Positions 12,873 to 62,034 of a stretch of 64,000 nucleotides of DNA are shown piece after piece (the first letter of the stretch is position 1; each line of letters starts with the position of its first letter). The notes below the pieces were generated by a model. The model searched no databases. It worked only from the letters and a program-made list of their open reading frames with translations, and was not told where the DNA came from. Position numbers and translations under genes: made by a program. The DNA comes from a bacterium (GTDB lineage: Bacteria > Myxococcota_A > UBA9160 > UBA4427), in NCBI GenBank assembly GCA_024742285.1, contig JANSYR010000001.1, forward strand, positions 1 through 64,000. Direction: 5' to 3'.

Positions 12873-13319
12873 TCAGCCCTCCCGCTTCTTGAACACGGGG
12901 AAGGGATGGCCGTAGCGTTCGGTCCAGGCGAGCTCGACGGGGAGACCGATCGCGACTTCCTCGACCGGCAGATCGATGACCGTGCTGCTGAAGCGCACGC
13001 CGTCCGTGCCGTCGAGGTCGACCGCGACGACGGGATGGGGCCCCTTCGCGTAGTCGACGCCCGGCGCGGGCGCGCCCTGGCGGAGATGCATCGCGAGATG
13101 GACCGTTCCCGTCCCCGCGACCTCCGTCGGGACGAGGTTCTCCGACCAGCAACCGGGACACACCGGCTTCGGCGGGTGATGGAATCGGCTGCAGTCCGCG
13201 CAGCGGTTGATCAGGAGCTTCTCGTCGAGCCAGCCACGGAAGTGGTGCTTCGAATCGTGGGAGATCTGGACCCACGGGAAGCGCTCGACCAGCTCGGCAT
13301 CGGAAACGGATTCGCTCAT
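12873..13319 (-). CDS. DUF35 zinc-ribbon/OB-fold protein, thiolase partner
   Basis: 148 aa. A rubredoxin-like zinc ribbon has Cys pairs CADC and CPGC separated by 12 residues, followed by an OB-fold (VPTEVAGTGTVHLAMHL, DGVRFSSTVID). DUF35 proteins bind CoA esters and form complexes with adjacent thiolase-fold enzymes. In Ltp2-ChsH2-type systems the DUF35 part is required for aldolase activity. Adjacency and near-overlap with the cysteine-less thiolase-like gene support such a complex here. AGAGG precedes the ATG. Confidence 0.85.
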   Translation of the reverse strand: MSESVSDAELVERFPWVQISHDSKHHFRGWLDEKLLINRCADCSRFHHPPKPVCPGCWSENLVPTEVAGTGTVHLAMHLRQGAPAPGVDYAKGPHPVVAVDLDGTDGVRFSSTVIDLPVEEVAIGLPVELAWTERYGHPFPVFKKREG

Positions 13320-13406: not shown

Positions 13407-14573
13407 TCAGGCCTCGGGCGTCGGCGTGATGTCCGCTTCGAGATCGAGGTCGAAGTACTTCGCCGGGTTCTCGAGGAGCATCTGGTTGCGGAAGGACTCG
13501 TCGACGCCGTCGAAGGCGTCGTCGAGGAACTTCCGCGAGTTCGGGTAGGACCCGACCGAGTGCGGGAAGTCGGAGCCGAACATCAGCCGATCGAAGGGCA
13601 GGTGATCGCGCATCGCCACGCACTTCGGGTCGCGGATGATGCCGAACCAGAAGTGATCGAGGATGTACTCCGAAGGCTTCCGCTCGAGCTTCCGGTCGAA
13701 GGAGCCCCGGAAGATCTCGTAGTTGTCGTCGATCACGAACATGCCCCAGGGCAGCCAGCTCGCGTTGACCTCGGCGAAGTAGAACTGCAGATCCGGGAAG
13801 CGGTCGAGCGCCCCGGAGCAGATCAGCTGGCTCATGTTGTACATGGGCGGCTGGCCGCTCACGCGTTGGACGATGGTTCCTGCGAAGGGATCCGGACCGA
13901 CGCCGACGCCGACGCTGCTCATGTCGGGGGACATCTGACCGAAGCCGAAATGCGGCGAAAGCCTCATGCCGATCTCGAGACTGCGCTTCCAGAAGGCGTC
14001 GTCCTCGGGCTTCGAGAAGCCGGAGCCGTTCGGGAACATGTGGAGCGAGACGGAGCTGATCCCGTTGTCCTTCAGGAACTCGATCTCCGCGATCGCGTCG
14101 TCGACGCCGGTCGTCGGGACGACGCCGTTGCCGATCAGCCGATCCGGAGCGACCGCGCAGTAGTCCTTGGCGAGGAAGGTGTTGTACGCGCGGATCAGCG
14201 CGCGGTACACGTCCTTGTCCCCGATGTTCTCGATCGCTCTCGACGCGAAGATCGGCGGAAAGAGCACCTCGGCGTCGATCCCGTCGATGTCCTGCTCGCG
14301 GAGACGCTGCTCGGCGGAGCCCGCCCCTTCCGCCGCGGAGCCGTCCTCGTTGAAATAGCTGCCGCCCTCGGTCACGACCGGTCCGCGCCCGGTGATGTTC
14401 TGACCGTTCGGGATCAGCGGTTGCCCCTCGATCAGCCAGGCCTCACCGCCGGTGGCCAGCTTGACCAGTCGCGGCGCCCGGTCCTGATGGATCTCCGGCA
14501 TGTACTTGACCCAGGATTCCGGCGGCGTCTCGACGTGTCCGTCTCCCGAGATGATCTGGTACTTACGGCCCAT
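13407..14573 (-). CDS. Amidohydrolase family 2 protein
   Basis: 388 aa. The N-terminus IISGDGHVETPPESWV carries the DxH version of the first metal motif found in the amidohydrolase-2 group. FFAEVNASWLPWGMFVIDDN and a late LMFGSDFPHSVGSYPNS give the conserved downstream motif with catalytic Asp. GGAGGA precedes the ATG. It is flanked by the double CoA-transferase upstream (85 bases) and by a strong hairpin then the DUF35/thiolase pair downstream. Relatives include decarboxylases and hydrolases of ring-cleavage or terpenoid pathways. The substrate is not determinable. Confidence 0.82.
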   Translation of the reverse strand: MGRKYQIISGDGHVETPPESWVKYMPEIHQDRAPRLVKLATGGEAWLIEGQPLIPNGQNITGRGPVVTEGGSYFNEDGSAAEGAGSAEQRLREQDIDGIDAEVLFPPIFASRAIENIGDKDVYRALIRAYNTFLAKDYCAVAPDRLIGNGVVPTTGVDDAIAEIEFLKDNGISSVSLHMFPNGSGFSKPEDDAFWKRSLEIGMRLSPHFGFGQMSPDMSSVGVGVGPDPFAGTIVQRVSGQPPMYNMSQLICSGALDRFPDLQFYFAEVNASWLPWGMFVIDDNYEIFRGSFDRKLERKPSEYILDHFWFGIIRDPKCVAMRDHLPFDRLMFGSDFPHSVGSYPNSRKFLDDAFDGVDESFRNQMLLENPAKYFDLDLEADITPTPEA

Positions 14574-14658: not shown

Positions 14659-17079
14659 TCAGAGGAAGCTCGGACGGGTCCCGATCACCTGCTTCTCCTC
14701 GAGGGCGCGGATCTCTTCCTCCGACTGGCCGAGGCGCTCCCGGAGGATCTCCGCGTTGTGCTCCCCGAGGAGCGGCGGGAGGGTGCGGATCGCCGGCACG
14801 CCGTCGAAACGCACGGAAGAGCGCGGGTAGCCGATGCGACCCGCGAAGGGATGGTCGAGGAACTCGAGGAAGCCGCGGGCATCGAGGTGGGCGTGTCCCG
14901 GAACGTTCTCGCGCTGGTTGAGGAGCCAGCCGACCGGGACGCCCGCCGCCGAAAGGATGTCACTGATCTCGCTCGCATGTCGCCCGCGACACCACTCGGC
15001 GATCCCCCGATCGATCACGTCGGCCCCGGCGCGTCGACCGGCCTCGGTCGCGAAGGCGGGCTCCCCCGCCCACGCCGGATCGCCGAGCGCCCCGACGAGG
15101 GCGGCCCACTGCGCGTCGCTCGCGCACGCGATCGCCACCCAGCCGACCTCGTCCGGGTTCCGTTCGTCGCGACAGACGTAGACGCCCTGCGGCGAAGAGA
15201 CGGGCCCGACGTTGCCTTCGCGTTCGAGGAGCACGCCGTAGGCGGACTGTTCGACGGCCTGCTCGCCGGCCAGCAGCAGGCCGACCTCGAGAAGCGAGAC
15301 CTCGATCATCTGACCGCCGGCGCCCTGCGCCTTCCGCTCGAGGGCACCGAGGAGCGCGAGCACCGCGGTCATGCCCCCCACCGGATCGCAGATCCCCCGC
15401 GGCACCGTCGGCTCGCGATCGGGAAAGCCCGTGACCCAGGCGAGCCCCGAGGCCTGCTCGATCGTCATCGCGAAGCCCACACGATCCCGCCAGGGTCCGT
15501 CGAGCCCGAAGGCCGGCATCCGGATCAGGATCGCGTCCGGATTGAGCGCCTTCACCCCCGGCCCGTCGAACCCGAAGCGCTCCATCACCCGCGGCGAGAA
15601 GTTCTCGATCACCACGTCCGCCTGCCGCACGAGATCGCGTGCGAGGGCGAGCCCCTCCGCGTCGTCCAGATTCAGGGTGAGCGCCTTCTTGCCCGAATTC
15701 GCGCCGTGGAAGACCGGTGCCCACTCCCAGACGATGCCGTCCTCCGGAATGAAGCCCGAGGCGAAGCGCATGCCATCGGGGCGTTGGATCGACTCGACCT
15801 TGATGACCTCGGCGCCGAGCTCGGCGAGGGTGGACGCCGCGAAGGGACCGGCCCAGAAGGCCGTGAAGTCGACGACCTTGAGCCCCGCCAGCGGCGCGTC
15901 GCCCGCACCCACCGGAGGCCGCGCCGCGGGTCGCGGACCCAGCCCGCCCAGGATCTCGGCGTCGTGCTCGCCGAGCCCCGGCGCCTTCGTGAGCGGCGCG
16001 GCGTCGCCGTCCTCGAAGCGGAAGGGCACGCCGGGCACCCGGAAGCCCCCCGGATGCTCGCGGTAGAAGCCACGCGCGCGCATGTGATCCGTCTCGAGCA
16101 CCGTCTTCCCGTTTCCGATCGGCGCGACGGGGATCCGTAGCTGGATGCAGAGCTCGACGATCTCGTCGATCGAGTGCGCGCGCGTCCATGCCTGGATCTT
16201 CGCGAGGAGCTCTTCGCGGCGTTCGTACCGGACCTGTCCCAGACAGAGCGAATCGTCCGTCACCCACTCGGGCTGCTCGACCATCACGCAGAGGTCGTGC
16301 CACTGCTGCGAGGTCTGCGTCGAGAAGCCGATCATGCCGTCGCGGGTCGGCTCGATGGAAGGGATCTCCACCATGACCGGGAAGGGCTCCCCCGGTCGCA
16401 TCTGCCCCTGGATGAACTGGTAGGGCTGGAAACAGAGGATCATCGTCTCGAGCATCGACACGTCCGCGTGTCGACCGCGGCCGGTCTGGCGCGCCACGCG
16501 CCAGGCGATCGCCGCCGCGACCGAGGCGAAGTTCCCGGCGCAGTACTCACCGAGACGTCCGCCGGCCACGACGGGACCAAGATCCTCGTAGCCGCGCCCG
16601 GAGAAGGAGCCGGTCTCCGCCTGGAGCGTGAACTCCGTCGCCGCGCGGTTCGCCCAGGGTCCGTCCTGCCCGAAGGGCGTGATCGAGACGAGGCTCGCCG
16701 CGGGGTTCGCCGCCCGGATCGCCTCGAAGCCGATCCCACGCGCGTCGAGCCATCCCGGCTCGAAGCTCTCGACCACGACGTCGACGTCCGCAACCAGCCG
16801 GAGGAAGGTCGCGCGGTCCGCTTCGTCTTCGGCCAGGTCGAGCACGATGCTCTTCTTCGTCGCGTTCAGCCACTGGAAGAGCGCACCGTCTTCGCCCTCC
16901 GCCAGGGGGGCCGAACGCCCGAGCACCGCCGACGTCTTCATCCGGCGGAGCGGATCGCCGGAGGGCGGCTCGACCTTGACGATCTCCGCGCCCATGTCCG
17001 CGAGCAGGCGGGTTGCGAAGGGACCGGCGATCTCCGTGGAGAGGTCGAGAACGCGAAGGCCATCGAAGGGGGTCGGCAT
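14659..17079 (-). CDS. Tandem double-domain CaiB/BaiF CoA-transferase
   Basis: 806 aa, twice the usual length, made of two class III CoA-transferase units. Domain 1 starts GLRVLDLSTEIAGPFATRLL and domain 2 starts GLKVVDFTAFWAGPFAASTL near residue 395. In the catalytic position of formyl-CoA transferase (Asp169 in GDS), domain 1 has Glu (GRLGEYCAG) while domain 2 has Asp (GICDPVGGM). Single-domain members normally dimerise as interlocked rings, so the fusion may form a pseudo-dimer with two unequal sites. CAGGAGT precedes the ATG. CoA donor and acceptor are unknown. Confidence 0.87.
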   Translation of the reverse strand: MPTPFDGLRVLDLSTEIAGPFATRLLADMGAEIVKVEPPSGDPLRRMKTSAVLGRSAPLAEGEDGALFQWLNATKKSIVLDLAEDEADRATFLRLVADVDVVVESFEPGWLDARGIGFEAIRAANPAASLVSITPFGQDGPWANRAATEFTLQAETGSFSGRGYEDLGPVVAGGRLGEYCAGNFASVAAAIAWRVARQTGRGRHADVSMLETMILCFQPYQFIQGQMRPGEPFPVMVEIPSIEPTRDGMIGFSTQTSQQWHDLCVMVEQPEWVTDDSLCLGQVRYERREELLAKIQAWTRAHSIDEIVELCIQLRIPVAPIGNGKTVLETDHMRARGFYREHPGGFRVPGVPFRFEDGDAAPLTKAPGLGEHDAEILGGLGPRPAARPPVGAGDAPLAGLKVVDFTAFWAGPFAASTLAELGAEVIKVESIQRPDGMRFASGFIPEDGIVWEWAPVFHGANSGKKALTLNLDDAEGLALARDLVRQADVVIENFSPRVMERFGFDGPGVKALNPDAILIRMPAFGLDGPWRDRVGFAMTIEQASGLAWVTGFPDREPTVPRGICDPVGGMTAVLALLGALERKAQGAGGQMIEVSLLEVGLLLAGEQAVEQSAYGVLLEREGNVGPVSSPQGVYVCRDERNPDEVGWVAIACASDAQWAALVGALGDPAWAGEPAFATEAGRRAGADVIDRGIAEWCRGRHASEISDILSAAGVPVGWLLNQRENVPGHAHLDARGFLEFLDHPFAGRIGYPRSSVRFDGVPAIRTLPPLLGEHNAEILRERLGQSEEEIRALEEKQVIGTRPSFL

Positions 17080-58138: not shown

Positions 58139-58849
58139 ATGACTTTGAAGAAGTGGAGCCTGTTGGCATTCGCGGCGGCGCTCATCGCGCCGATGTCCGC
58201 GAGCGCACTCGGCATTTCCATCGTGAACGTGTCGACGTCCAGCCCGAACGCGGACGGATCCCTCGAGAACGGAGACACCATCACGTTCGACCTGTTGCTC
58301 GAGAACAACGACAACCTGGACATCATCGGTCTCGACGTCGGCGCCTTCGGCTACGACGAAGGTGCGGTCGGCAGCCCGTTCGACAACCACCTCCAGTACG
58401 ACAGCGCGCGAACGGGCACGAGCGCCTTCCGCGCGATCAACGGAACCGTCCTGACGGAGCTGTCCGCCGACGTGCCGCAGGCGGAGTTCGGCAGCGCGCT
58501 CCTCTTCCAGGAGCGCTACGTCCGCCTCTTCGGCGGGATCTCGACGACGCCGACGAACGGTGACGGTCAGTTCGACACGGGCATCGACGGCCTCCTGACC
58601 GAGAACGGCGACGTCCACCTCCAGGTGACGTTCTCCGCGCAGTCGCTCGGCGCCACCCCCGGCGCTCCGGCCACCGTCGACCTGGTCTTCGGCATCGGCC
58701 AGCAGGGCTTCGACGTCCAGGGCACCTCGGGCTCGCTCGCGGGCCAGTGGACCAACGCGGCCTACACCGTCACGATCGTCCCGGAGCCCGGTACCGCGCT
58801 CCTCATGGGCCTCGGTCTCGCGGGTCTCGCAGGCGCTCGCCGGCGATAA
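58139..58849 (+). CDS. PEP-CTERM sorting domain protein, secreted
   Basis: 236 aa. Signal peptide MTLKKWSLLAFAAALIAPMS-ASA. The mature part is acidic, Gly/Thr/Asn-rich and beta-structured, with LENGDTITFDLLLENNDNLD suggesting an immunoglobulin- or cohesin-like fold. The C-terminus has the sorting signal VPEPGTALLMGLGLAGLAGA ending in RRR: Pro-Glu-Pro, membrane helix and basic tail. The exosortase that processes such proteins is not in this window. GAGGTAG precedes the ATG. A strong terminator follows at 58896. The protein is expected at the cell surface or in exopolysaccharide. Confidence 0.88.
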   Translation: MTLKKWSLLAFAAALIAPMSASALGISIVNVSTSSPNADGSLENGDTITFDLLLENNDNLDIIGLDVGAFGYDEGAVGSPFDNHLQYDSARTGTSAFRAINGTVLTELSADVPQAEFGSALLFQERYVRLFGGISTTPTNGDGQFDTGIDGLLTENGDVHLQVTFSAQSLGATPGAPATVDLVFGIGQQGFDVQGTSGSLAGQWTNAAYTVTIVPEPGTALLMGLGLAGLAGARRR

Positions 58850-58895
58850 TCCGACCCATCGGCGCGGCCTCGGCCCGCCACGCGAAGTCGATCTG

Positions 58896-58928
58896 AACGG
58901 CCGCTCTCCGTCCCGGGGAGCGGCCGTT
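58896..58928 (+). terminator. Strong hairpin terminator after PEP-CTERM gene
   Basis: AACGGCCGCTCTCC pairs with GGGGAGCGGCCGTT (eleven Watson-Crick pairs, then one G-T and two more) around a GTCCC loop, followed by TCGATTTCG. It lies 46 bases after the stop at 58849. The symmetrical A/T ends mean it could also work for minus-strand transcripts. Confidence 0.75.
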
Positions 58929-59037
58929 TCGATTTCGAGCCGCCGGTCCCGTTCCGGGCGGGCGCGCCGGGGCGGAGGCGGCCCCGGTTCCCGATCTGGG
59001 CCACCCTCGGGTCCCCCGCGCGAAGAGAGGACCGGCC

Positions 59038-60273
59038 ATGACGATCGAACGAGACGAGCTGGGCTTCGACGCCCCCGCGCCCCTCGGCCATCCGGGTCGA
59101 GCGGGGCTCCCGGAAGGCCATCCGACGGGTCCCGAAGTCGGCGAGAAGCTGCCCGGGTTCACGCTGCCCGACGCCTTCGGCAGGCCGGTGAACCTGCACG
59201 AGGATCGCGCCGGACGTCCGGCGGTCGTCGTCTTCTACCGCTCGGCGGTCTGGTGACCGCCCTGCTGGACGCAGCTCGGTGAGCTGCGAGATGCCTGGGC
59301 CCGCTTCGAAGACGCCGGCGTGGCGCTCTATGCGATCTCCTACGACGACCAGGAGGTCCTCCGGGAGTTCAGCGAGAAGCAGTCGATTCCCTATCCGCTC
59401 CTTTCGGACGTCGACTCCGAAGTCATCCGCGCCTACGGGATCCTGAACGACCAGGTGAAGCCGGGGGATCTGATCCTCTACGGAATCCCCTACCCGGGCA
59501 CCTTCATCACGGACGGCGACGGAGTCGTCGTGTCCAAGTCCTTCCACGGCTCCTACAAGATCCGCGACAGCCCCGAGGCACTCCTCGACGCCGCCCTCGG
59601 GCGGGCCCAGCTCGATCACGTCGACGCCGCCCCGGCCCAGGGCGACGAAGCGGTCCGGGTCCAGGTCGCCCTGCGCGGCGGCAGGGGCACCCTGCGCCAG
59701 GGCATCGTCCGCCACGCGATCGCCCGTTTCGAGCTCACGGACGGATTCCACCTCTACGGCGATCCGGTTCCGGAGGGCATGATCGCGACCCGCGTCGAGG
59801 TCTCGGGTCCGCCCGGCCTGGTCGTCCACGATCCGGTCCTGCCGCCGACGGAGCCCCTGCGCCTCGCGTCGATGGGCGTGGAGCTGCAGGTCTGGAGCGG
59901 CTCCTTCGACATCGAGGTCCCGTTCCACGCGGTCGGCGAGCTGGCCAGCGAGTGCCGTCCCCTCGACCGGGACTCGGTCCCCCTCGAAGTCAGCATTCGC
60001 TACCAGGCCTGCGACGACGAGACCTGCCTGCTCCCGAAGACCGAGACCTTCCGCTTCGACGTGCCCCTCGACGTCGTCGACATCCCGAAGCTCGCGATGC
60101 ACACGGGGCACGGTCAGCGCGAGGGCAACTTCGACGCGCAGCCCCATCTCCAGCGACTTCTCAAGCGGAAGTTCAAGGAGAGCCCCCTCGGCTTCCTCCG
60201 CCACGCAGCCCTCGCCGTCCGCCTGAACATCGCCGCAAGGCTCCGCGCCCGCCGCGGCGAATCGAAGCCCTGA
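59038..60273 (+). CDS. Probable selenoprotein: Sec-containing peroxiredoxin-like domain fused to DsbD N-terminal-like domain
   Basis: 411 aa if TGA at 59254-59256 is read as selenocysteine 73. Upstream text (PEVGEKLPGFTLPDAFGRPV, VVVFYRSAVW) and downstream text (WTQLGELRDAWARFEDAGVA, ALYAISYDDQ, PYPGTFITDGDGVVV) form one continuous AhpC/TSA-Redoxin domain, same frame. The motif is then U73-P-P-C76, the CPPC site of thioredoxin-fold proteins with Sec first. Residues about 195-345 resemble the DsbD N-terminal domain, with Cys325 and Cys330 in YQACDDETCLLPKTE. No signal peptide is visible. GAGAGGA precedes the ATG. A SECIS-like hairpin follows the TGA. Alternative: a point nonsense mutation (TGC or TGT to TGA) in a cysteine version. 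Confidence 0.8.
59270..59288 (+). promoter_or_regulatory. Bacterial SECIS-like stem-loop
   Basis: CGCAGCTC pairs perfectly with GAGCTGCG around the loop GGT. The loop begins 21 bases after the TGA at 59254-59256, inside the 16-37-base window known for bacterial SECIS elements, and it starts with G and contains GU as SelB-recognised loops do. The stem is in coding sequence, as always in bacteria. Confidence 0.7.
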
Positions 60274-60336
60274 CCGAGCGCGCCTTACGCCCGCCCGATC
60301 CGCCGAGCGCCCGCAGGCGGCCGATGAGGCAACGGA

Positions 60337-62034
60337 TCAGCCTCCTTGCAGGACGTGCCCCGGGAGAGCGCCGGTGTGCTTGTTCTGCTCGAGCACGACC
60401 TCGCCGTTCACGATCGTGGCGACATAGCCGCGCGCGTCGACGACGAAGCGCTCGCTCTCCGCCGGAAAATCCTTCGCGAGCCAGGTGTCGCCCTTCGCGA
60501 GCTGGTCGAGGTCGATCAGGACGAGATCCGCGAAGTACCCCTCGCGGATCGCGCCGCGATCGCGGATCCCGTGCACGATCGCCGGCATGTAGGCCAGCTT
60601 GAACACCGCCTGCTCGAGCGAGAGGACGTCCGGCACGAAGTCGGTCAGCAGGTTCGTCGTGTAGTCGGCGCCCACGAACGAGGCGAGATGGGCCCCCCCG
60701 TCGGACGAGCCCGCCATGGCGAAGGGCTCCCGCATGACCTGCGCACAGATCTGGTCCATGTAGGCCGCCGCCTCGGGCGCGGTCACCATGTTGAACCAGG
60801 TTTCGAGCCCCTCGGAGAGCGCCAGATCGAGGAAGGCGTCGACGCCGCTCTGGCCCGCCGCCTCGGCGAGCTCCGCGATCGTCTTGCCGACCTTGTCCTG
60901 GTTCGCCGGATCGGCGACCTGCTCGACCGCGAGATTGGCCCAGGTCATGCCGATCGTCGTCGCCGCTTCGGCCTCGAACTCGACCGCCAGCTCGGCACGC
61001 GACGCCGGATCGCGCAGCCGCTCGCTCCGCTCGGGCTCCGCCAGGCAGAGCACCTCGCGCCACTTCTTCATGTCGTCGAAGACGAAGGTATCGGAGAGCT
61101 TCACGTGGATCCCGCCGCGATTGGTCGCGAACTGCGGATGGAAGCGCCCGCCCTTCTCGTTCTGTTCCTTGCACCACTGGAGCGACTTCGACCAGCTCTC
61201 GGGGTCTTCGCCGCTCGGGAAGAGCAGGTTGAGCTCGACGGGTCGGCCGGAGGCCTCGTGCATGCGGATCATCAGCTCGCGATCCGCGTCGTCGTACCCG
61301 CGCCCGAAGCTGCGCGGGATGATCTCGACGGCGCCGCGATCGAATTCCGAGAGCACCCCCGAAAGCGCCACGACCTCGTCCGCGGTCGCGTGGTTGCTCG
61401 GCACCTCCCGACCGTCTTCACCGACGTGGAGGTCGAGCTGCGACGTCGAGAAACCGATCGCCCCCTCGCGCATCGCCGCGCGAACGAGCTCCTTCATCTG
61501 CTCGATCTCTTCGGGCGTCGCCTCGCGCTCCGAGGCGTCGTCTCCCATCACGAAGCGACGCACCGCCGAGTGGCCGACGTAGCTCGCCACGTTGACGCCG
61601 ACCTTGCCCTCGAAGCGCCCCCAGTAGTCCCCGTGGCCGCCGCCCTCGAACTTGAGCCCCTCGGCGAGCGCGGCCCGGCTCATGCCTTCGACCCGCGAGA
61701 GCATGCCCGCCAGCCAGTCGACGTCCTCCGGCTTCGCCGGCGCGAGGGTGAAGCCGCAGTTGCCCGCCAGGACCGTCGTGATGCCGTGCCAGCAGGAGGG
61801 CGTCACGATCGGATCCCAGTCGAGCTGGACGTCGTAGTGGGTGTGGATGTCGATGAAGCCGGGGGTCAGGACGAGCCCCTTCGCCTCGATCGTGTGCGTC
61901 GCGTCGGTGTCGATCCGGCCGATCTTGGCGATCCGATCGCCCTTCACGCCGACGTCGGCCACGTAGGCGGGAATGCCGGTGCCGTCGACGACGCGGGCAC
62001 CCTTGATGACGAGATCGAATTCGGGAGTGGACAT
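60337..62034 (-). CDS. N-acyl-D-amino-acid deacylase-type amidohydrolase
   Basis: 565 aa. [36 protein letters not shown] (metal HxH), [20 protein letters not shown] and the late [14 protein letters not shown] carry the D-aminoacylase signature; the C-terminus ([20 protein letters not shown]) closes the beta domain. ATG at 62034 has AAGGAGA seven bases upstream; another ATG two codons earlier overlaps it. Paralogue of 9927-11657. It follows the CoA-transferase gene on the same strand (56 bases). Substrate unknown. Confidence 0.85.

Follow-up and report, generated by a model that had tools for sequence, protein, structure and literature searches.

ResA and CcmG are oxidoreductases of the thioredoxin fold that are membrane-anchored outside the cytosol and use Cys; to our knowledge, they have no fused nDsbD domain. 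In DsbD, nDsbD is the periplasmic domain of a membrane protein, and in E. coli it reduces CcmG, a ResA-like redoxin. Among selenoproteins, UxxC Prx-like forms (Prx-like 1, pfam00578) are known from marine metagenomes through the Sargasso Sea and GOS surveys (PMC2398784, PMC1088965). A preliminary description of the present DNA counted thioredoxin-fold proteins with Sec first in the active site as an established bacterial class. In the marine metagenome survey, 2,740 Cys homologues of Prx-like 1 stood against 225 Sec forms (PMC2398784, PMC1088965). A 'Prx-like thiol:disulfide oxidoreductase' is also included in PMC13188914.

Here, we analysed a gene interrupted by TGA at codon 73 in a 64,000-nucleotide stretch of DNA (the window) from a myxococcotal genome. 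On the computed basis of its frame, the Sec machinery, the conservation of the TGA and of a downstream hairpin, and its domains, we concluded that the gene almost certainly encodes a bacterial selenoprotein with Sec at codon 73, where Sec is presumably inserted in vivo. Like the UxxC Prx-like selenoproteins, it combines an AhpC/TSA redoxin, Sec first in UxxC and a SECIS just downstream, and occurs in marine bacteria. Unlike them, its family has a conserved C-terminal nDsbD-like domain fused to the redoxin, and, in contrast to Prx-like 1 with its Cys homologues, no Cys form was found in the searches described below. Fragments of the family may have been counted within the Prx-like UxxC surveys. 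Unknown_3 likewise joins a UxxC redoxin to a second, Cys-conserving domain; it is described with three conserved Cys including CxxC, as against the two invariant Cys of C-x4-C here, and on that description the two are probably, though not certainly, distinct.

The likeness to ResA/CcmG-type oxidoreductases lies in the thioredoxin fold, and a ResA-like paralogue has Cys at the positions of both Sec73 and Cys76. The C-terminal domain shares with nDsbD (PDB 1l6p, 3pfu, 1z5y) its fold, as judged by Foldseek, and a conserved Cys pair; unlike nDsbD of DsbD, it is fused to a redoxin in a protein with no evident signal or membrane part. Similarity to the SelL-related model NF040769 was weak and at the redoxin level (E 1.6e-8), and the score of 34 against a cut-off of 120 places the protein outside that family. 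The main texts of the literature searched contained no description of a redoxin-DsbD-N fusion, and a 2026 review, which lists the UxxC Prx-like forms, has DsbD only in the rhodanese/DsbD fusion-like TsoB, which is not the architecture found here. The UxxC Prx-like kind is known; what is apparently new is a family that always has Sec, carries an nDsbD-type module in fusion and scores below every NCBIfam cut-off. The features of the gene are collected in Table 1.

Table 1 Features of the candidate selenoprotein gene, in window positions.
Feature	Positions	Strand	Basis
Purine-rich Shine-Dalgarno-like stretch GAAGAGAGGA, just 5' of the ATG	59022–59031	+	Read from sequence
Predicted selenoprotein ORF, 411 residues, Sec at 73, natural stop TGA at 60271–60273	59038–60273	+	Read from sequence and relatives
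AhpC/TSA redoxin (thioredoxin-fold), residues 34–165	59137–59532	+	Pfam PF00578 3e-32; Foldseek Bcp/AhpE/ResA
TGA as predicted Sec73, opening residue of the U-P-P-C site	59254–59256	+	Conserved across relatives
Cys76, second redox residue of U-P-P-C, invariant	59263–59265	+	Sequence and alignment of relatives
SECIS core, 8-bp perfect stem: CGCAGCTC (59270–59277), loop GGT (59278–59280), GAGCTGCG (59281–59288)	59270–59288	+	Folding, covariation
DsbD N-terminal-like domain, residues 226–340	59713–60057	+	Pfam PF11412 5.5e-9; Foldseek 1l6p, 3pfu, 1z5y
Cys325 of the C-x4-C pair, invariant	60010–60012	+	Sequence and alignment of relatives
Cys330 of the C-x4-C pair, invariant	60025–60027	+	Sequence and alignment of relatives

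Translation confirmed the single frame that had been read from the ATG at 59038 to the stop, with the TGA of codon 73 as its only break. When ORFs were called with table 11, the gene fell, as had been foreseen for routine annotation, into two pieces of 72 aa and 317 aa, the second being the ORF at 59320–60273. Redoxin coding on both sides of the TGA was likewise established, as the AhpC-TSA match (E=3e-32, residues 34–165) spans it. The family, although widespread in marine bacteria, lacks a dedicated NCBIfam model, and standard ORF calling would split it at the active site. Scans of 58840–60400 found no promoter or terminator. A 480-aa antisense ORF at 58762–60204 (minus strand) was dismissed as a high-GC shadow of the conserved plus-strand gene.

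The PF00578 match scored 111.6 bits against a cut-off of 26, with the site reading UPPC, and the PF11412 (DsbD_N) match 36.5 bits against 25; the latter domain was present in 18 of 18 relatives. Both this domain and the absence of a Cys form go beyond the earlier reading. The AlphaFold2 model of the full-length protein had a mean pLDDT of 88.5, and its N-terminal half matched Bcp4, AhpE, and ResA in Foldseek. Modelled alone (pLDDT 82.8), the C-terminal half gave the DsbD N-terminal domain as its top Foldseek hits; among these was 1z5y, a disulfide-linked nDsbD complex. AhpC-TSA, Redoxin, and DsbD_N were the only Pfam domains in the 411 residues; since the transmembrane and C-terminal thioredoxin domains of DsbD are absent from them, the protein is not DsbD. 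All ten NCBIfam matches of the protein lay far below the curated cut-offs. Inspected by eye, the N-terminus showed no evident signal peptide, and a cytosolic location is likely on that ground.

The TGA was conserved wherever relatives could be compared. At the order level, 20 of 61 genomes, including the source, contained a match, and each match covering the site had TGA; the same held for every such match when 379 genomes across the phylum were searched with a profile, where no Cys form turned up, and for those in the HTCC2080 clade (Halieaceae). A relative with 86% identity (L029/L050) carries the same TGA. In a collection of 84,980 species, TGA stood at codon 73 in 80 of 80 loci and Cys in none; the scan patterns came solely from the protein part downstream of codon 73, so the scan could not favour TGA over TGC/TGT, and both were learned from TGA-bearing members, so that remote Cys relatives could escape them. 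The homologue alignment across the TGA, proposed as a check, thus contained no other residue at this place, and Cys appeared in the ResA-like CAPC paralogue of the source genome (L007), the nearest Cys counterpart seen. As no Cys-containing true orthologue was found, paralogues have to serve for the classical Sec/Cys pairing test. The absence of a Cys form makes the family a good case for why some redox enzymes need selenium. Sec73, Cys76, Cys325, and Cys330 were among the invariant residues. Recurrence of the same TGA in independent genomes excludes a sequencing read error. Moreover, the gene ends at matching places across relatives irrespective of which stop (TGA, TAG, or TAA) is used, which indicates that one TGA is read through and the other is not.

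The search for selABCD suggested in the preliminary description was positive throughout. The source genome (G000; 6.5 Mb, 95% complete) contains selA, well over the curated cut-off, together with selB, selD, and one tRNA-Sec above the Rfam threshold, which ARAGORN independently called as tRNA-SeC with anticodon TCA. Across carrier genomes, selA was present in 45 of 48, and its lack in the other three assemblies is likely due to incompleteness. Among 140 genomes of HTCC2080's family, 18 have the gene and 49 have selA, with 17 of the 18 carriers in the overlap (hypergeometric p = 2.8e-8, uncorrected for relatedness). The gene is found 4–8 kb from selA-selB in three genomes, that of HTCC2080 and two relatives, and is adjoined there by a second TGA-split redoxin, which resembles the TGA-split redoxin adjoining selB in the source genome. 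Of the three results that had been named as refuting a selenoprotein, namely a genome lacking selABCD, a residue other than Cys or Sec at this codon in homologues, and reads with TGC/TGT, none occurred.

The perfect stem with a GGT loop was recovered where it had been placed; the distance of 21 bases after the TGA holds for the start of the loop and not for the stem, which begins after 13 nt. It is the TGA-to-loop distance that the bacterial SECIS model uses. That model allows a loop of 3–9 nt with G in its first two positions, a stem of 4–16 bp, a UGA-to-loop distance of 16–37 nt, and an MFE of at most −7.5 kcal/mol (PMC13188914). With its 3-nt loop GGU, 8-bp stem, 21-nt distance, and −23 kcal/mol, the hairpin lies within the limits on all four counts (PMC13188914); a weaker lower stem extends over about 59259–59300. 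As a single sequence the hairpin was only mildly unusual (shuffle z −2.3; 8 of 8 pairs in 4.1% of synonymous recodings), and its standing beyond chance derives from conservation across relatives, not from single-sequence statistics. The normalised synonymous-codon entropy of 75 distinct relatives averaged 0.80 over the gene and fell to a minimum of 0.40 at codons 76–84, which are the stem itself; Thr78 was ACG and Glu82 was GAG in 75 of 75. Across 76 distinct regions, an average of 7.5 of the 8 stem pairs formed, compared with 5.6 of 8 in synonymous recodings that followed the codon usage of the family; the GGU-type loop always opened with G. In an initial alignment of 20 sequences, all cells were paired, and one pair had changed on both sides. 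A compensatory exchange, G-C to A-U, affects the pair between the third base of Gln79 and the first base of Leu83 (CAG to CAA with CTG to TTG); it occurred in four branches separated by well-supported forks, and both changes are silent in the protein. RNAalifold also proposed an additional helix 5' of the stem that would pair across the UGA; it was rejected because covariation support was absent.

These observations bear on how else the TGA might be explained. As a true nonsense mutation or an assembly error, it would make the gene a pseudogene, in keeping with the pieces that the standard code yields (72 aa and 317 aa); however, the same TGA recurs in about 100 loci of independent genomes, the protein is conserved on both sides, and the hairpin is under RNA-level selection, and we regard a pseudogene as scarcely credible. 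The mechanical ORF list could also be taken to mean two products, a peptide of 72 residues and a protein of 317 residues that starts at an internal GTG (59320). Such an arrangement would sever the thioredoxin fold at its active site, the residues from the TGA to 59320 (PPCWTQLGELRD) rank with the best conserved, and the TGA is never swapped for another stop in relatives; two separate products are thus very improbable. UGA is reassigned in some bacteria, and a code change or near-cognate readthrough could place another amino acid, such as Trp or Cys, at codon 73. This seems just as improbable, as the gene itself ends with TGA where relatives end with TAG or TAA, the genome has a tRNA-Sec with a UCA anticodon as well as selA, selB, and selD, and the family tracks selA.

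A selenoprotein might nevertheless act as a peroxiredoxin, a peroxidase whose reductant is the fused domain. The best sequence matches are indeed Bcp/PrxQ-type peroxiredoxins, whose peroxidatic Cys corresponds to Cys76 in the alignment. However, the T/S-x-x-C(P) motif of peroxiredoxins is replaced by U-x-x-C, with Sec73 aligned with their Thr/Ser and with a Cys of the ResA-like paralogue, and other redoxins of the source genome read T-P-G-U with Sec at the peroxidatic place, which points to two distinct designs. The placement of Sec73 and Cys76 speaks more for an oxidoreductase of the dithiol type than for a classical peroxidase, and we consider the peroxidase unlikely, though to be taken seriously.

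For a Sec-containing dithiol-type oxidoreductase, we propose the following course. With the hairpin 13 nt downstream as a guide, SelB and Sec-tRNA(Sec) would recode the codon-73 UGA and yield a protein of 411 residues that is probably cytosolic. The thioredoxin-fold domain at its N-terminus would present the Sec-Pro-Pro-Cys site, with Sec at the attacking-Cys place of ResA-type oxidoreductases, and the C-terminal nDsbD-fold domain would reset the Sec73-Cys76 bond via Cys325/Cys330 of its invariant C-x4-C. The nDsbD-like fold and the invariant C-x4-C make a self-reduced selenol/thiol oxidoreductase the likeliest mechanism, and by analogy we give resetting by the protein's own Cys325/Cys330 domain an even chance. 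Both partner kinds, nDsbD and a CcmG/ResA-like redoxin, would by the same analogy be joined in one chain, so that electron transfer from nDsbD to a redoxin could be tested in a single-chain model. The electron path and the substrate are putative; the route is uncertain because nDsbD is periplasmic in E. coli and a signal peptide is not evident in the predicted protein.

The 80 loci come from four phyla (Myxococcota, Halieaceae and other Gammaproteobacteria, Alphaproteobacteria, Planctomycetota, and Acidimicrobiales), and the isolates HTCC2143 and HTCC2080 are among the carriers. In the tree, which has many well-supported forks, gammaproteobacterial and myxococcotal members interleave. This points to horizontal transfer of the gene; some of the pattern could also stem from binning errors in individual MAGs. 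We tentatively suggest, at somewhat less than even chances, an undescribed obligate-Sec family that pairs a redoxin with its own nDsbD-type reductant outside the periplasm and has spread horizontally together with the Sec trait, in some cases next to selA-selB, among Myxococcota, marine Gammaproteobacteria, Alphaproteobacteria, Planctomycetota, and Actinomycetota. The source genome has one copy; G362 and G529 gave three matches each, partly diverged copies of the family.

Altogether, at least seven candidate redoxin selenoproteins were seen in the source genome. L002/L177 (G000:C1:777358-777894, minus) is a TGA-split redoxin with the motif FFRGHW-U-PYC and a membrane-type N-terminus that adjoins selB (C1:774923); similar proteins (L148, L149, L150) stand beside the relative of the window gene near selA-selB in Halieaceae. 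L176, at about 16021–16467 on the minus strand of the window (G000:C4:330020-330466), is a TGA redoxin reading FYRGHW-U-PFC, 11 kb from selA. L003 (G000:C4:105444-105899) is an in-frame-TGA redoxin with the motif DW-U-PFT and no second Cys, and L004, L005, and L008 (G000 C11:31607, C12:28127, C7:53941) are peroxiredoxin-like, with T-P-G-TGA and Sec at the peroxidatic place. In another genome, L049 (G012:C3:153219-153701) is a single-domain SADW-U-PYC protein, 45% identical to the redoxin half and lacking the DsbD-like domain. A scan of GC by codon position for more TGA-split genes in the window, insensitive in that it missed the codon-73 case, returned only two junctions, 12873–12875 and 13407–13409 (minus strand); they have good coding composition on both sides, lie in one gene cluster, and look like adjacent genes, not recoding. 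Upstream of the selenoprotein gene, the gene at 58139–58849 (plus strand) ends, as seen by eye, in a PEP-CTERM-like tail, VPEPGTALLMGLGLAGLAGARRR.
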